DNA of 11,709 bases, taken from assembly GCA_020725805.1 (NCBI GenBank), contig DYEF01000109.1, forward strand, positions 1-11,709, written 5' to 3'. Below, piece after piece: positions 5 through 11,525 of the stretch. The notes under the pieces are model-generated. The model was given only the letters and a program-made list of their open reading frames with translations. It was not told where the DNA came from and did not search any database. This DNA comes from Bdellovibrio sp. Lineage in GTDB: Bacteria; Myxococcota; SpSt-1050. Made by a program: the position numbers and the translations under genes. Position 1 is the stretch's first letter. Each line of letters opens with the position of its first letter.

Positions 5-394
5 ATGGCTAAGATAATTAACAGATATTTATTCAATTGGCAAGATATAGATAACCTCCCTGAATTAAAAAGATTTCAGCTTGTTTTGGAATATGCAGAT
101 GACGAAGAGTTTATGAGGATGCTTGAGAGGATAAGGTATAAGGGGAGGAATGAATATCCTGTGAGGGCTATATGGAATAGTCTGCTTGTAATGTATGTAG
201 CCCAGCATAGTAGTATAAGTTCATTGAGACGGGAGTTGATGCGGAATCCTTTATTGAGACAGTTATGTGGATTTGATCCTGTGAAGGGGGCAAAGGCAGT
301 ACCACCTGCGTATGTATACTCGAGATTTATTAGTAAGCTGAACTACTCATTATGCCTGGCACCGGTAAATAGCAGATGTCTTATTACCGAATAA
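5..394 (+). pseudogene. Truncated transposase, N-terminal fragment (IS1182/DUF772-like)
   Basis: Residues 1-112 resemble the N-terminal DNA-binding region of IS1182/IS4-type transposases (DUF772-like). Visible hallmarks are the segment PVRAIWNSLLVMYV (residues 52-65), the helix SSISSLRREL (69-78), the LCGFD motif and the VPPAYVYSRF segment (about 99-108). Full-length proteins of this type run to several hundred residues and carry a DDE catalytic domain after this point. Here the recognisable part ends near base 340 (ISKL). It is followed by about 17 residues of unrelated, cysteine-containing tail and a stop, so the catalytic domain is absent. The fragment cannot encode an active enzyme. The left inverted repeat would lie outside the window, and no right terminal repeat is evident before base 404. 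The family name rests on remembered motifs, not a search; the truncation is clear. Confidence 0.72.
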
Positions 395-403
395 CGGCTA
401 TCC

Positions 404-1756
404 TCAATATCTCATTGTTATTCCGGACTGCAGGTAATAGATCGGCTCTGTAACCGAGACCGTCTTTCCTTCCTGATCCTTATATTCTGTTTTATTCACA
501 ACGTTGATCAATGCTGCACCTGCATCTCCCGGCACGAGGATACCTCCTATCAGCTGAACCGACAACAGCGAATCGAAGAAGACTCCCTCCGCAATAAGAT
601 TATTCTCCCACCCCACAAAAGATGAACCGAACGAATTTTCCTTCTCTGCTGTCATCAGAACTCCGCTTACAGGTCCGACTCTGAGCCAGTTCCGTATGTA
701 GTATATCCCCAGATCAAATCCGATCAAACCCGCCTTCATCTCGTAGAAGACACCATCAAAAGCCCCGATTCGCTTATCCAGATTATCGCCTATCGGTCTC
801 ATATCATTTTCGCTCAGTATGAGAGAAGGTCCTGCCCTTCTGGAACCAAACAAAAATGCCCCCGAGTCATTCCCCTCGTATTCGTCGTCCGAAGACATAT
901 AGGAGAAGACACCTTCAACCTTTATCATGTTGTCATAATTGTATGTCCCGCTTAACATAAATCCGTAAGCAGATATATTTGTGTTTTTCAGATCGGCTCC
1001 ACCTTTCTGCCTGTATCCGTGCAAATAGGTAGCCGACCCAGATATCTCCAAATCCTCCAGATTAAACCCCAGTCCACCCTCGAGTGCCGTTATCTGCCTT
1101 CTCCTGTCAATCAGGTGCATATCATCCACAAAATAGATTCCGGCCCTGAGCTTTAGTTCATCCAGAATTCTATAATATCCGTCGGCACCTACCAGATATA
1201 CATCTGTCATAAAATTGGACGAGGTAAAATCCCAACCCTTGTAAGTCTGGTCCGGATATTCCCCGCCTGTCATAAAAACTCCGTATTCATCCTGCTGATA
1301 ACCAATCCTGAGTGCCCCTATCCAGTGGTTTATAAACAGTGTCGAAATATCCATTACCCTTTGAAAACCAGCTTTCAGGACAAAGCCATCCTGCCCGACC
1401 TCTCCGTATATCTCCCTCTGTTTCAGGCCAATGGCATAAGATGAGTTGTTTTCATCAAGACCGACATCAGGGTTATTCCTGCTCCACAAATCCAGACCTA
1501 TCTCTGCCTCCCAGTAAAACCTGACCAACTCATTTGCACTGAGAGTGAGCATCGGCTTGAAGAATGTCCCGGCGAGTCCCATCTCCTGTCCGTATTTGCT
1601 GTAAAAAGGCTCTGTCCTGTCAAAATCGGTATCATTTCTCAGTATAAACATATTCAGAAGCTCAATATTCAGCTCCGCCTTTCTTGCCTTACTCTCTTCT
1701 GCCACCGCAATACCGGAGATTAAAACCAGAAGTAAACTTATAGCTATTCTGTTCAT
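404..1756 (-). CDS. Predicted outer-membrane beta-barrel protein, unknown function
   Basis: The 450-residue product starts with a classical signal peptide: MNR, a hydrophobic core at residues 4-16, and an AVA-E cleavage site at 19/20. The mature part is rich in alternating aromatic/glycine beta-strand patterns, for example residues 106-131, 145-162, 196-209 and 335-360. It ends in GITMRY with a terminal aromatic residue, as outer-membrane barrels usually do for recognition by the BAM machinery. I therefore read it as an outer-membrane barrel, possibly a porin or exporter-like channel, but I recognise no specific family. A purine-rich ribosome site (GAGGAG) precedes the ATG by 7 bases. It is the last gene of the three-gene operon, 15 bases after the GH5 lipoprotein gene, which suggests transport or display related to that enzyme's glycan. 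The C-terminus looks intact despite the transposase remnant 9 bases beyond its stop. Confidence 0.7.
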   Translation of the reverse strand: MNRIAISLLLVLISGIAVAEESKARKAELNIELLNMFILRNDTDFDRTEPFYSKYGQEMGLAGTFFKPMLTLSANELVRFYWEAEIGLDLWSRNNPDVGLDENNSSYAIGLKQREIYGEVGQDGFVLKAGFQRVMDISTLFINHWIGALRIGYQQDEYGVFMTGGEYPDQTYKGWDFTSSNFMTDVYLVGADGYYRILDELKLRAGIYFVDDMHLIDRRRQITALEGGLGFNLEDLEISGSATYLHGYRQKGGADLKNTNISAYGFMLSGTYNYDNMIKVEGVFSYMSSDDEYEGNDSGAFLFGSRRAGPSLILSENDMRPIGDNLDKRIGAFDGVFYEMKAGLIGFDLGIYYIRNWLRVGPVSGVLMTAEKENSFGSSFVGWENNLIAEGVFFDSLLSVQLIGGILVPGDAGAALINVVNKTEYKDQEGKTVSVTEPIYYLQSGITMRY

Positions 1757-1771
1757 AACGGCTCTCCTCTT

Positions 1772-4303
1772 TTAATTTCTTTTACCGACCAGAAGTTTTC
1801 CGTCTTTGTAAAAATATGTCCAGTCTGTATACTCTCTCTGCGCCTGAACGGGCCTTATCGTGATTTCGTGATTCTTTCCCGGTTCGTCAGCAGTAGGATA
1901 CCAGAAGAACGTCGAACTCTCTTTGTCAAACATCCCCCATCCGTCGGAGAGCCAGATATAGAATCCGTCCTTATACTGAACAGACGGAACGAATATCTCC
2001 GTCGGCATATCAGACTCCTTGCTCTGCATCGACATATAGAACTCACGCCACGGGTCTAAAATACCCTTCGAGGAGTCGTAATAGTGATAATCGGAATAAA
2101 AGTGCATTTTATAAGGTTTGCCGGACAAAAATTTCGGATATGGTCTTGAGAATGCCAGTTCTCCGCGCGGTTTCCCCTCAGGGTCTATTATCGAGAAATC
2201 CTCATAATTCCACAGGTCTCCCTTGTCGTATGAGTTGTCCGCAGAGAAACACCAGAGCAATCTGCCGATAAAGAGAGATTCAAATGCCTCATAGTAATTG
2301 TCGAGTATCTCTGCAGAAATTCTGTAACCTGATTTTCTCGATTTCTCAATACCGTTGTAATTGAAATAGGTCCCGAACTCCCCGAAGACCGTCGGCATCA
2401 GACCAAAAGTGCTTTTTACAGCCTCGACCTTCTCCTTTATATATGGAGTAAAATCCTGAACCCGCCACTCCTCCACATTGAAATCACGCGGCGGCGAATT
2501 TATTCCGAAGAAAGGATATATATCCGGATACCAGTGTGGGGTAAAGACCACCTGTTTTAGTTCCTCCGGTTTGTAAAGATTGACTGTCCCTATCGTCCCG
2601 CCCAGAAGTGAATCAAGGGCTCCTCCTCCCTCCTCGAGCCAAATAATTGCGTTCGGGTCAGCGTTCTGAATTGCCGTTCCGATTCTCTTGTAGAGTTCTA
2701 CCAGATAGACCACAAAATTCATATTGAGATCGAGCGTTGCAAATGTATCGATATCATCCGCCGCATACTGTTTTCTGAGCGTCTTTTTGTATTCGGCCTT
2801 CTCCTCCTCGATTTTGTCCCTGTGCTCGTCGATATAGAAACGGGTCTTCAGAAATGCCGCTTTGTCTGCCTCGTTCATATCCTTTGTCCTGTCCTGATAT
2901 TTTGCCTCATTGAGCGAAAGCCAGCTCTGATATTCCGTCTGGTGTTCATCGGCATAACCATATACCTCCGACTTGTGTGCACTGACGTACCGGTCCTCAA
3001 AGTACGAATCGGTCGGGAATACAGGAAGGAGATTTAAGAGAAAGATAAGACGGTATAAAGCCTCGGCCCTCTCCTCCCCGACGATGTTCACAAGGAGATT
3101 CTTGACAGACTGTGGATTGAACTCGGAAGAGAAGTATGCAGACATAATCGTAAGCATCAGAAATCCCCCGGGAGGTTCATTGATCAGGTCATACCCTATC
3201 ACATTGGGCAGATCCCTGACAGCCTCTACAACCTTAACCCACGAGTTTACATATCCGGTCTGCAGATAATCCTTCACGTTCATCTTTATCATCTTCTTTC
3301 CGCTCGGGTCACTAAGGTCGGGATATTCATATTCGTAATTCGGATATACCTTGTCACCGGCAAAGAAGGCCGCGTAGCATCTGTTGATATCATAACTCAG
3401 AAGCGTATTGTTCCACCAGTTCGTAAACGGGAAGACGTCAGTTGTCTCAGTTACATCGAAAGGAATAAGAGGTTCTTTAAGATTATTCTGCATCTTTAGG
3501 ACCATATCCTGAAGCCACTTCGAAAGGTCTCTCTCCTCCTGTGCCGGAACCGGACCCAGAAGACCGGAATCTCCCAGAAGCGAATTTATGTTGCTTATTA
3601 TCTGGTCTCTCATAAATGCATCACCCAGATTGCCGAGCAGTTTGAATGTCCCCCACTTTCTGGAGTCAAACTTCTTTTCGGGAAGACAGGCCTTAACTGC
3701 CCACATCGGAGCCCCGTCTCCCATAGTCCTCGAATCAAACTTTACCCTCCCCCTGTCGAGTTCCGATTCATCCGGAAATACAGACGCGAGCATATATTCC
3801 AGAGAACCTTCCTCTCCGAAGGCAGGTTTCCTGTTGAAGTTTACAAAGAGTATTCTCGAGAAGAGATTTTCGTGAAAATTTACAAGCACATAGATATTGT
3901 AATCGTTTGCCTTCTTTACTATCTCCCTGATATAGTTCAGGTATTCGTAATCAAATTTGCCCGGCCCGTCGTGCTCAACGGCCTCCCAGTTGACAACCAG
4001 ACGAATCGAGTTAAATCCCAGCTCCCTTAAGACCGAAAACCATTTATCTGCATCCGACAGGGGAAAAGGTCTGCCCACGAACGTCACCGGCTGTCCCCTC
4101 GGGTCGGCCGTCGGAATCGGTTTTACGGGCAGTTTATTCGTACCGCCCACATTGATTCCGTTGAAATAGACATATCTGTTGTGAACATCCCTGAAATATG
4201 TCCGGTCAACCTTGAGCATCGACAGGCTTTTATCAGGTTTTCTCTCCGAATCCAGACAGGATACAGAGAGAATCAAAACAAGTGCTAAAAGAATCCTCTT
4301 CAT
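1772..4303 (-). CDS. Glycoside hydrolase family 5 lipoprotein, endoglycoceramidase-like
   Basis: The 843-residue product has a lipoprotein signal with lipobox Cys16 (LSVSC). The GH5 TIM barrel begins near residue 46 (FNGINVGGTNK). Arg101 lies in SIRLVVNWEAVE and His144 in VNFHEN. The acid/base is Glu376 in YDLINEPPGG, His590-Trp-Tyr592 follows, and the nucleophile is Glu642 in VFGEFGT. All are present, so it should be active. GDGAPMWA (195-202), FTNWWNN (293-299) and the late stretch at 688-705 (ADN...GDLWNYEDFSI) are typical of endoglycoceramidases and related glycolipid-cleaving GH5 enzymes. A C-terminal beta-sandwich-like region (about 720-843) matches the extra domain of that group. Relatives are near 450-500 residues. 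The excess lies mainly in insertions at about 151-194, 221-290 and 385-525, the last with a charged helical segment at 451-517. GGAGGAG lies 3 bases before the ATG. Family is confident; the substrate (glycolipid, steryl glucoside or other) is inferred. Confidence 0.85.
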   Translation of the reverse strand: MKRILLALVLILSVSCLDSERKPDKSLSMLKVDRTYFRDVHNRYVYFNGINVGGTNKLPVKPIPTADPRGQPVTFVGRPFPLSDADKWFSVLRELGFNSIRLVVNWEAVEHDGPGKFDYEYLNYIREIVKKANDYNIYVLVNFHENLFSRILFVNFNRKPAFGEEGSLEYMLASVFPDESELDRGRVKFDSRTMGDGAPMWAVKACLPEKKFDSRKWGTFKLLGNLGDAFMRDQIISNINSLLGDSGLLGPVPAQEERDLSKWLQDMVLKMQNNLKEPLIPFDVTETTDVFPFTNWWNNTLLSYDINRCYAAFFAGDKVYPNYEYEYPDLSDPSGKKMIKMNVKDYLQTGYVNSWVKVVEAVRDLPNVIGYDLINEPPGGFLMLTIMSAYFSSEFNPQSVKNLLVNIVGEERAEALYRLIFLLNLLPVFPTDSYFEDRYVSAHKSEVYGYADEHQTEYQSWLSLNEAKYQDRTKDMNEADKAAFLKTRFYIDEHRDKIEEEKAEYKKTLRKQYAADDIDTFATLDLNMNFVVYLVELYKRIGTAIQNADPNAIIWLEEGGGALDSLLGGTIGTVNLYKPEELKQVVFTPHWYPDIYPFFGINSPPRDFNVEEWRVQDFTPYIKEKVEAVKSTFGLMPTVFGEFGTYFNYNGIEKSRKSGYRISAEILDNYYEAFESLFIGRLLWCFSADNSYDKGDLWNYEDFSIIDPEGKPRGELAFSRPYPKFLSGKPYKMHFYSDYHYYDSSKGILDPWREFYMSMQSKESDMPTEIFVPSVQYKDGFYIWLSDGWGMFDKESSTFFWYPTADEPGKNHEITIRPVQAQREYTDWTYFYKDGKLLVGKRN

Positions 4304-4315
4304 TATCTCCTCCGT

Positions 4316-5857
4316 TTATTTCTGAAAGGACTTTAATATATCGAGCATCCTCTGATTTGGCTCCAAAACAACCTCCCTGTATTTCTCGAACTTTCTCTTT
4401 ATCTCATCCTTCGAATCGAGATATATGTCCGGCCTCTCAAACTCAGATTTTAAGACGGACCTTACGCCCCACATCGATGAGTGATTGAACAGAATCTTTG
4501 CCTCGGGAGAATCTATCCTCTTATAAGTCCAGACAGACCAGTGATACTGCCTCTTTTCATACCATTTGACAAGTTCCGAGAGGGCTTCATAAGCCCAGTC
4601 GATATCCTTGATTACAGAGAAGCTCCCTATGAAAAACGGCACATTATACCTCTTCTGTGCATCTGAATAAATCTGGTCATACAGACTAATGAGTGTCTGA
4701 TAGGCCGAGAGCGACGTTGCATCAAACTCAAAGATATGGGTCGAATAGACGACGTTCGTCCAGTTATATTTAGAGGGTTCGGGAAAACTCCCCATACCCT
4801 TGAAACCGTCGTGAATTACGAGGAGGTGGTCATCACCGTTCTCCCTGATACCTTTTACGATCTTATCGTAAACGACATCCCTTGCATCCGTACTCGGGGC
4901 ATCGAAAGGCTCCGCAAGGAGTGAATACATCGCCACAATATCCCTGTTTTTGTATCTGTTCGAGATATATTTCCAGAGTTCGACCGTGAGAGCCTGCATC
5001 TTTTCATTCTCATATAATTTACCCTTGAAATCGGAATAATCGTTATGCCCGCCGGGAGATTCCTGTAAATCAATTACTGCATATACACCGTATTTTTCGC
5101 ACCAGTTAAGAAGTTCATCGATTGCCTTAAGGACCGGTTCATTATATGTGAGCTTTTCGGGAAGTTCGGCATCCTCATCGGTCGTCAGTGTCCTGTAACC
5201 AATGGGAACCCTTATAAGATTAAATCCCTGAGCTGAAATCCACTTTATGTCTTCTTCGGTAATCCAGCTTCTGATAAAACTGAGCAACAGTTCGTCCCTC
5301 GCCGCAATTCCGAATCTCTGAGCCAGAAGACCACGTAATTTATAATCAGAGTCATCACAAATAGTAGGATACTTCTTCAGTTCGTTTACAAAAGCATCAG
5401 CATCTGTCTCGGGGATAAGTTTCTTCAGTTCTGTTGTGAATTTGTCGAGCCAGCCCGAACCGTTTCCTATACATACATTCGGGAGAGGGTCTCCCTTCTT
5501 TGCCTCCGGAATACTCTCCTTCAATGCCGCAACTATCTCGTCTTTGTATATATGTGATTGTGCAAACTTATATGCCCTCGAAGAGGTCGTATGGTCGATC
5601 TGATTTACCCATGTTTCAAGAAAGAGATAGCCGCCGATATTAAATCCCCTCAGCCTAACGGGATTCCCATTAGAGTCAACTATCCTCTTGCCGCTTGCAG
5701 AAAGCCTTGAAAACAGAGGCTGATTTCCTGTGTCATCCGAAATGACATCCGCGGCCTGAATTATATCGGTTCCCGCATCAGAGAATTCGGATTCCCTTTC
5801 ACTGCAGAAGAAGATAAAAGGCAGGAAGACCAGAAGAACAAAGAATACTCTTTTCAT
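4316..5857 (-). CDS. GH5-fold exported protein with degenerate active site (probable pseudo-glycosidase)
   Basis: The 513-residue product has an N-terminal export signal ending at Cys18 (FIFFC). It is a likely lipoprotein, though Phe at -1 is atypical for a lipobox. An acidic linker (19-47) leads into a GH5 barrel resembling exo-beta-1,3-glucanases: GFNIGGYLFLETW (71-83), then WITEEDIKWISAQGFNLIRVPIGY (198-221) with Arg216. About 110 extra residues separate these segments. Glu316 survives in LLAEP, but the usual Asn before it is Ala315. The nucleophile Glu expected in the FIGxF segment is Ser412, the His of the DLHG-type strand is Gln265, and the His-x-Tyr tyrosine is Phe376. His374 and Trp443 remain. 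Retaining hydrolysis therefore looks impossible. The frame is intact and a good ribosome site (AGGGAGG) precedes the ATG, so the protein is probably made. It may bind a glycan or act as partner of the active GH5 protein encoded 12 bases downstream; that role is inference. Confidence 0.8.
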   Translation of the reverse strand: MKRVFFVLLVFLPFIFFCSERESEFSDAGTDIIQAADVISDDTGNQPLFSRLSASGKRIVDSNGNPVRLRGFNIGGYLFLETWVNQIDHTTSSRAYKFAQSHIYKDEIVAALKESIPEAKKGDPLPNVCIGNGSGWLDKFTTELKKLIPETDADAFVNELKKYPTICDDSDYKLRGLLAQRFGIAARDELLLSFIRSWITEEDIKWISAQGFNLIRVPIGYRTLTTDEDAELPEKLTYNEPVLKAIDELLNWCEKYGVYAVIDLQESPGGHNDYSDFKGKLYENEKMQALTVELWKYISNRYKNRDIVAMYSLLAEPFDAPSTDARDVVYDKIVKGIRENGDDHLLVIHDGFKGMGSFPEPSKYNWTNVVYSTHIFEFDATSLSAYQTLISLYDQIYSDAQKRYNVPFFIGSFSVIKDIDWAYEALSELVKWYEKRQYHWSVWTYKRIDSPEAKILFNHSSMWGVRSVLKSEFERPDIYLDSKDEIKRKFEKYREVVLEPNQRMLDILKSFQK

Positions 5858-5953
5858 AATAAACCTCCCTGAAAGCCCTGAACAGAACTGACATATGAAA
5901 AAAAATGTTTAACGAATAAAAAACCGGTTCCTACAGAATCAAACCGAAAGAGC

Positions 5954-10552: not shown

Positions 10553-11200
10553 TCAGTACATTGATAGCAGCTCGGTCTCGGTATTGACATTCACCCTGAA
10601 GCGGGCGGAGAGTATCTGGTAATTCAGAAGGATGATATGTGCATAGTAGTTCATAAGAATTGCTGTCTCTTCCGAAATCTCACCTTTTTTATAGCTTTTG
10701 AGCAGCCCTTCTCCCCCCAGATAGGCCATAAGCATATCTGTATAATTGCCGTATTTCTCCCTTAACCTCGAGAGTTCGGCCGTGCCCTTCTGGATGTTGG
10801 TATCTATATCATAGATATTTACCTGCACCTCGTCGAAATAACGAGGTATAAGCTGCATAAGTCCGGCGGCCCCGCGCGGCGAAAGAGAGAACGGATTATA
10901 TTCACTCTCCTTATAAATCACCGATGTAATAAACAGCGGGTCGAAATCGTACTTCAGGGAGTTTGAAATTATACTCTGGCTTATCTTCTCGACAAGACTA
11001 TACGAAAGGTCCCCGTTCTTACTCATTATCAGAAGCGAAATGGCGTTTCTCAGGCTCTCGTTGTTCTGTTCCTCGAGCGACCTGATACTCGTGCTGAAAT
11101 TCTCCTCGGTCCTGTTGTAATATCTGCCCGGAGACTGCGGATTGGAGCAGCCGTAGAAGATGACGACTGCCACCGCGGCATATTTAATTATTCTGCTCAT
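10553..11200 (-). CDS. SLT-domain lytic transglycosylase, lipoprotein
   Basis: Cleaves the MurNAc-GlcNAc bond of peptidoglycan to a 1,6-anhydro product, probably in the periplasm on a lipid anchor. From the chosen ATG the protein has 215 residues. The signal is MSRIIKYAAVAVVIFYGC with lipobox Cys18, followed by a polar linker. The SLT domain spans about 80-190. Catalytic Glu98 lies in VIYKESEYNP, followed by SPRGAAGLMQLIP (107-119) and NIQKGTAELSRL (135-146). The usual AYNAG segment reads AYLGG (159-163), an unusual change near the glycan-binding groove. An in-frame ATG at 11245 would add 15 charged residues before the signal. The internal ATG is preferred because it starts the signal peptide directly and has AGAGGA 6 bases upstream. 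It overlaps the preceding gene by 17 bases, indicating translational coupling. Confidence 0.85.
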   Translation of the reverse strand: MSRIIKYAAVAVVIFYGCSNPQSPGRYYNRTEENFSTSIRSLEEQNNESLRNAISLLIMSKNGDLSYSLVEKISQSIISNSLKYDFDPLFITSVIYKESEYNPFSLSPRGAAGLMQLIPRYFDEVQVNIYDIDTNIQKGTAELSRLREKYGNYTDMLMAYLGGEGLLKSYKKGEISEETAILMNYYAHIILLNYQILSARFRVNVNTETELLSMY

Positions 11201-11525
11201 CGACCATCCTCTGGAGTTTCTGAATCTTCTTGGCGACTCTCTCAAGCCTCTGGTTAAGCTCTGATAACTCAGGTCTGATATTCTGATAAAACCTTCTGTT
11301 GAGATAATTCAGTGACTTCAGGAATTTCTTCCTGCTCTGCCTGACGTAATTTCCGCAGACCGCCTCGTAATTATGTATTATCCTTTCGATCTCATTATTT
11401 TCTATTTCGGATTCGGGCAGCTTCGAAAGGAGGTATTTATACAGGTCGCTTACATTCTGCTCCTTTGCAAGCATCATATTCCTGATCATCTGTTCAAAGC
11501 GGTTTTTAAGAAAATCAATCGCCAT
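11184..11525 (-). CDS. Small basic coiled-coil protein, unknown function
   Basis: I do not recognise this 113-residue protein. It has no signal peptide or membrane segment. It is rich in Lys, Arg, Glu, Asn and Leu and is almost certainly mostly helical. The C-terminal part (about 84-110, from RPELSELNQRL to QRMVDEQ) has heptad-like spacing of Leu/Ile/Val suggesting a coiled coil. One cysteine (Cys57) is present. An in-frame stop 9 bases upstream of the ATG (with only CTG and GTT between) restricts the start to this codon or a later one. No ribosome site is visible, and the promoter boxes end about 10 bases before the ATG. It is the first gene of a two-gene unit with the lytic transglycosylase, which it overlaps by 17 bases. 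A role alongside that enzyme is possible but only by context. The overlap and the strong promoter argue that it is a real gene. Confidence 0.68.
   Translation of the reverse strand: MAIDFLKNRFEQMIRNMMLAKEQNVSDLYKYLLSKLPESEIENNEIERIIHNYEAVCGNYVRQSRKKFLKSLNYLNRRFYQNIRPELSELNQRLERVAKKIQKLQRMVDEQNN
11207..11212 (-). promoter_or_regulatory. Ribosome binding site fixing the lytic transglycosylase start
   Basis: AGAGGA on the minus strand lies 6 bases before the ATG at 11200, inside the 3' end of the coiled-coil gene. The alternative upstream ATG at 11245 would put a charged extension in front of the signal peptide, so this site supports the internal start. Confidence 0.6.

Follow-up and report, generated by a model that had tools for sequence, protein, structure and literature searches.

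A GH5-Like Protein That Has Very Probably Lost Its Catalysis, Conserved in Two Species of One Genus of Myxococcota

Introduction

Non-catalytic GH5 proteins were described by Aspeborg et al. in 2012. They are GH5_30, a subgroup of GH5_1 from Xanthomonas, lipoproteins related to GH5_8, and one protein of GH5_48 (PMC3526467). Among these groups, one consists of lipoproteins and two have long branches (PMC3526467). Another case is Rsi24C-GH5 of Clostridium thermocellum. As described there, this is a distant, non-catalytic, cellulose-binding GH5 module of a biosensor, which has lost the acid/base and is fused to an anti-sigma factor (PMC3526467).

The closest described active enzymes belong to two subfamilies. 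The GH5_22 exo-beta-xylosidase of Geobacillus thermodenitrificans (9ku5, 9kua) has an N-terminal LRG..GG..E motif before the barrel, and its nucleophile Glu is present in the motif GEF. The GH5_9 exo-beta-1,3-glucanases (Candida Exg, 1cz1; Aspergillus AoBgl) have a GGW..E motif and the full catalytic set. GH5_9 contains fungal sequences only (PMC3526467).

Here, we analyze P0001, a GH5-like protein encoded in a stretch of 11,709 nucleotides, hereafter the window. P0001 has the same N-terminal motif as the GH5_22 enzyme, with Ser412 at the place of the nucleophile Glu. It shares the fold and the GGW..E motif with the GH5_9 enzymes, which are farther from it than GH5_22. As in the groups of Aspeborg et al., catalytic residues are lost in P0001. 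Those groups lie in other subfamilies, however, and the loss in P0001 is therefore apparently independent. P0001 also differs from them in having neither an extra module nor a large C-terminal extension, and in being encoded in an operon with a second GH5 enzyme. Compared with Rsi24C-GH5 as described there, P0001 keeps the acid/base, has lost the nucleophile and is a stand-alone protein.

Results

Gene and Export Features of P0001

P0001 is a protein of 513 aa encoded by an open reading frame on the minus strand (4316..5857), and its orthologue in a second species is at L010:6001-7542. The ribosome-binding site AGGGAGG is at 5864..5870 on the same strand. The protein starts with a signal peptide, followed by a possible lipid-anchor Cys18, a linker of ~30 residues, and the GH5 barrel from residue ~50. 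The coordinates, the frame and the residues given in a preliminary description of this DNA were reproduced. That description also considered the frame, the ribosome-binding site and the export signal to be intact. The first two are, but the lipobox is weaker than claimed: it reads I-F-F-C18 in the window, with a non-consensus Phe at position -1, and I-F-S-C in the other species. From these features, P0001 would be exported and possibly anchored.

No further copy of P0001 was found in a search of its own genome. A scan for promoters and terminators returned a number of sites not above that in shuffled sequence. P0001 matches the Pfam family Cellulase (PF00150) with 77.7 bits (E=1.3e-21), the cut-off being 23.5 bits.

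Active-Site Residues

The residues of P0001 were mapped with solved GH5 sequences and an alignment of twelve family members, and the local alignments are gap-free. Four of the eight GH5 signature residues are altered and four are retained. At the end of strand 7, the catalytic nucleophile Glu is absent, and both species of the genus have Ser412 there (codon AGC, 4622..4624, minus strand). The acid/base Glu after strand 4 is retained as Glu316, but the Asn before it is Ala315, so that the N-E pair of relatives is A-E here (4910..4915, minus). On strand 3, Gln265 replaces His and is followed by Glu266 (DLQE here, DLHG in relatives; 5060..5065, minus). On strand 6, the motif HxY is HxF (H374-I375-F376; 4730..4738, minus), with His374 retained and Tyr replaced by Phe376. 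The remaining retained residues are Arg216 on strand 2 and Trp443 on strand 8. The four replacements had been proposed in the preliminary description, and the gap-free alignments confirm them. Three more changes specific to the genus, G266E, E349H and Y352F, are absent from that description. E349H alone was rejected as diagnostic, since one relative, L080, likewise has His there although its catalytic set is complete.

In the pairwise alignment of strand 7 with 9ku5, VPFFIGSFSV of P0001 is opposite VPLWVGEFGS without gaps. In the family alignment, the same region stands against VPIYLGEFST and similar sequences, also with zero gaps. Another Glu at the end of strand 7, which would have restored a normal catalytic pair, was looked for: none is in VPFFIGSFSVIKD, and no other acid is on the strand. 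As for CelC in the family-profile alignment, the glutamates of LLNE and GEF are chain positions 140 and 280, its acid/base and nucleophile. In the predicted structure of P0001, S412 is on strand 408-414, Q265 on strand 259-265 and F376 on strand 369-376, and A315-E316 directly follow strand 308-312. Retaining hydrolysis needs the nucleophile. Because P0001 has Ser there instead, and its Asn, His and Tyr that would support catalysis are changed too, ordinary GH5 catalysis has very probably been lost.

Predicted Fold and Subfamily

AlphaFold2, run on P0001 with eleven sequences, gave a model with pTM 0.82 and mean pLDDT 79. Confidence is low for residues 1-45, which comprise the N-terminal signal and the linker, and for two loops. 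The model is a (beta/alpha)8 barrel like those of solved GH5 structures. Among solved structures, it is closest to the GH5_22 exo-beta-xylosidase 9ku5 (Z 37.9, 365 residues, 2.3 A; 25% identity over the aligned structure), which is also the best match by sequence (E=1.5e-23) and by profile. The next matches are the GH5_9 exo-glucanases, with Z of about 32, and CelC, with about 30. The kinship with GH5_9 exo-beta-1,3-glucanases suggested in the preliminary description is thus not upheld: their Z is about 32 against 37.9, and their sequence E-values are weaker. As 9ku5 is nearer by both sequence and structure, P0001 can be called GH5_22-like, a term that refers to the nearest solved structure and sequence, not to formal subfamily membership.

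Conservation in a Second Species

The orthologue in a second species of the same genus, Deltaproteobacteria bacterium SKW273 (Myxococcota; L010), is 82% identical to P0001 and carries every signature change. Between the two genes, pN is 0.11 and pS is 0.90; the synonymous sites are saturated, and dN/dS is therefore not expressible as a ratio. The differences at codon positions 1, 2 and 3 are 15, 8 and 60%. Identity rises to 95% in region 241-320, which surrounds the pocket and the positions where His and Asn were lost. Several altered residues are retained through synonymous codons: CAG/CAA for Q265, GCG/GCA for A315 and TTC/TTT for F352. Nine canonical relatives share 68 invariant columns, of which 28 are changed in P0001, and in each of these the orthologue carries the identical replacement. 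Taken together, these comparisons show that P0001 evolves under purifying selection and that its altered site is fixed.

Distant Relatives and the Timing of the Loss

A direct search with P0001 in 58 relatives of the phylum gave matches confined to this order. A search with the family profile covered 195 Myxococcota genomes and two more phyla, and the relatives that it recovered outside the genus have the catalytic set. The 30 relatives compared outside the genus belong to Myxococcota, Hydrogenedentota, Verrucomicrobiota and Armatimonadota, plus one record labelled proteobacterium, and represent at least four phyla. All 30 are canonical at positions 265 (His), 315 (Asn), 316 (Glu), 374 (His) and 412 (the nucleophile Glu), and 29 have Tyr aligned at HxY. 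Two of the canonical relatives (L015 and L018) are from the order of P0001 itself. The relatives with a normal catalytic pair show 25-30% identity, and none is a clear orthologue. P0001 is known from two species only, both of them uncultured. As to whether orthologues share the substitutions, a check proposed in the preliminary description, the only one, from the same genus, does.

In a tree computed without the altered columns, a single change accounts for the loss, and it falls on the stem of the clade formed by the two species. This stem is long (2.02 changes per column), and the placement of the clade among the relatives is weakly supported. Both species share the changes and all 30 distant relatives are canonical; judged from this distribution, the catalytic residues were lost once, on the stem of the genus.

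Some relatives have peculiarities of their own. L015:1378-2979 (contig JACRCP010000183.1), which has a complete catalytic set, contains an in-frame TAG before NVVYS, where other relatives have Trp. The codon could be a nonsense change or be read through, or the assembly could be in error. In two Salinispora proteins (L020 and L021), the GGW motif is separated from the GH5 barrel by several hundred residues of inserted repeats. More repeats follow the barrel, and they look discoidin-like from reading the sequence.

The Three-Gene Unit

On the minus strand, P0001 (5857-4316) is followed by P0002 (4303-1772) and P0003 (1756-404), with gaps of 12 and 15 bp. P0002 (1772..4303, minus) is a GH5 lipoprotein of 843 aa that starts 12 bp past the stop of P0001, with the ribosome-binding site GGAGGAG at 4307-4313 (minus). 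It matches Pfam Cellulase as well and bears a GH5 C-terminal domain. All eight signature residues are present in it: R101, H144, N375, E376, H590, Y592, E642 and W684. The nearest solved sequences are those of sterylglucosidase SglA (8exd) and endoglycoceramidases (6jyz, 2osx), the best with E=1.9e-34. The catalytic Glu residues and the GH5 C-terminal domain align with those of P0002. P0002 differs from them in being a bacterial lipoprotein of 843 aa and in having an insertion around residues 430-507. This insertion is charged, is also seen in the orthologue of P0002, and interrupts the alignment to shorter P0002 relatives.

P0003 (404..1756, minus) is a secreted protein of 450 aa with a signal peptide and a C-terminal aromatic residue, beginning 15 bp after P0002. 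P0003 and its relatives matched zero families of Pfam or NCBIfam. Structure prediction from two sequences only gave pLDDT 30, so the assignment of P0003 as a probable outer-membrane beta-barrel is drawn from sequence features. A DUF772 transposase fragment (window 5-394) at the end of the contig adjoins the three-gene unit.

P0001, P0002 and P0003 are in identical order and with similar spacing in the window and in the second species. The flanks of the unit differ between the two, which indicates that the three genes were kept together through rearrangement. The preliminary description had placed a conserved P0001 beside an active GH5 enzyme. The conserved neighborhood is borne out, and P0002 has all GH5 signature residues.

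P0002- and P0003-like genes are also adjacent in seven other genomes of Myxococcota, and each of the two species of the genus has a second such pair. At least nine genomes of the phylum carry this conserved unit of two genes (window 404-4303; G000:C65 17630-21282, L053; G002:C146, L055; and others). No relative of P0001 lies beside these other pairs in the stretches read. In one genome of the same order, the copies related to P0001 sit on contigs other than that of its P0002-like gene. Since the pair occurs elsewhere without a P0001 relative, it is probably older, and the pseudo-GH5 gene probably joined one copy in this genus.

Two other genes can be mentioned. A sodium:solute symporter gene comes after the second P0002/P0003 copy in this genus. 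The window also encodes, at 10553-11245 (minus), an SLT lytic transglycosylase whose export signal contains a Cys. With the listed TTG as its start, this frame overlaps the gene at 11184-11525; initiation at an internal ATG is more likely.

Discussion

It can be considered moderately probable that P0001 is a non-catalytic GH5 accessory protein that binds a glycan or glycolipid for P0002. P0001 would descend from an active GH5 glycosidase akin to GH5_22. The retaining double-displacement chemistry would have been lost with the nucleophile, and with the breaking of the N-E pair and of the HxY support. What would have been preserved is the barrel, together with some residues of the sugar pocket (E81, R216, E316, H374, W440 and W443). 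Such a protein would most likely bind glycans or glycosides in the periplasm or at the cell surface, and would capture substrate for, or present it to, the GH5 lipoprotein P0002. The putative membrane protein P0003 might then handle the product of P0002 or give it passage. Both the sugar binding and the partnership with P0002 are our suggestions from the retained residues and the gene order.

The main rival is a role between proteins, in which P0001 would activate P0002 or P0003, or serve them as a scaffold or chaperone, and would no longer bind sugar. This is possible rather than probable. The operon partnership is seen in both species, and pseudo-enzymes of other families act on their active relatives. 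Besides, H265, N315 and Y376 contribute to sugar binding in the -1 subsite when a GH5 enzyme is active. These are lost in P0001 in addition to the nucleophile, and its pocket may thus no longer bind the ancestral sugar. Yet both species have kept E81, R216, E316, H374 and W443 of the sugar site, and these residues lie in one of the best conserved parts of the protein. Relatives of P0002 also exist elsewhere without P0001. As seven genomes and the second copies manage without a pseudo-GH5 neighbor, P0001 would be dispensable for the basic function of P0002 and P0003, which counts against the accessory role too.

Altered catalysis appears unlikely. Here, the acid/base E316 would work with another carboxylate, such as E266, or with the substrate in place of the nucleophile. 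E316 is indeed strictly retained, and G266E sets a new acid beside the lost His265 in both species. However, E316 has lost its Asn partner and HxY its Tyr, and no GH5 enzyme is known to operate in this way. That P0001 is a GH5-fold glycosidase or transglycosidase with chemistry new to GH5, based on E316 with E266 or on participation of the substrate, is more doubtful still.

An early pseudogene drifting to loss is highly improbable. Its sole support is the altered active site, against which stand the intact frame and ribosome-binding site, the strong purifying selection and the same altered residues in both species. The preliminary description had already judged that P0001 is not decaying, and the 513 open codons agree with it. 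Decay and sequencing or assembly error are excluded by the codon-position differences and by the orthologue, which shares all changes despite the saturated synonymous sites. An artefact, with the true nucleophile elsewhere or the bases wrong, is hardly credible, given the gap-free alignment of strand 7 and the concurrence of two independent genome assemblies.

With non-catalytic GH5 proteins known since 2012, P0001 adds a loss that appears to have arisen separately, elsewhere in the family. Automatic annotation of this protein as a cellulase would mislead. P0001 could be considered as a clean case, within one genus, of a glycosidase turned non-catalytic: its order contains relatives that look active, the loss happened once, both species keep the altered site under purifying selection, and a candidate partner enzyme is encoded 12 bp downstream. 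What pseudo-glycosidases are for would become testable here with two or three purified proteins.
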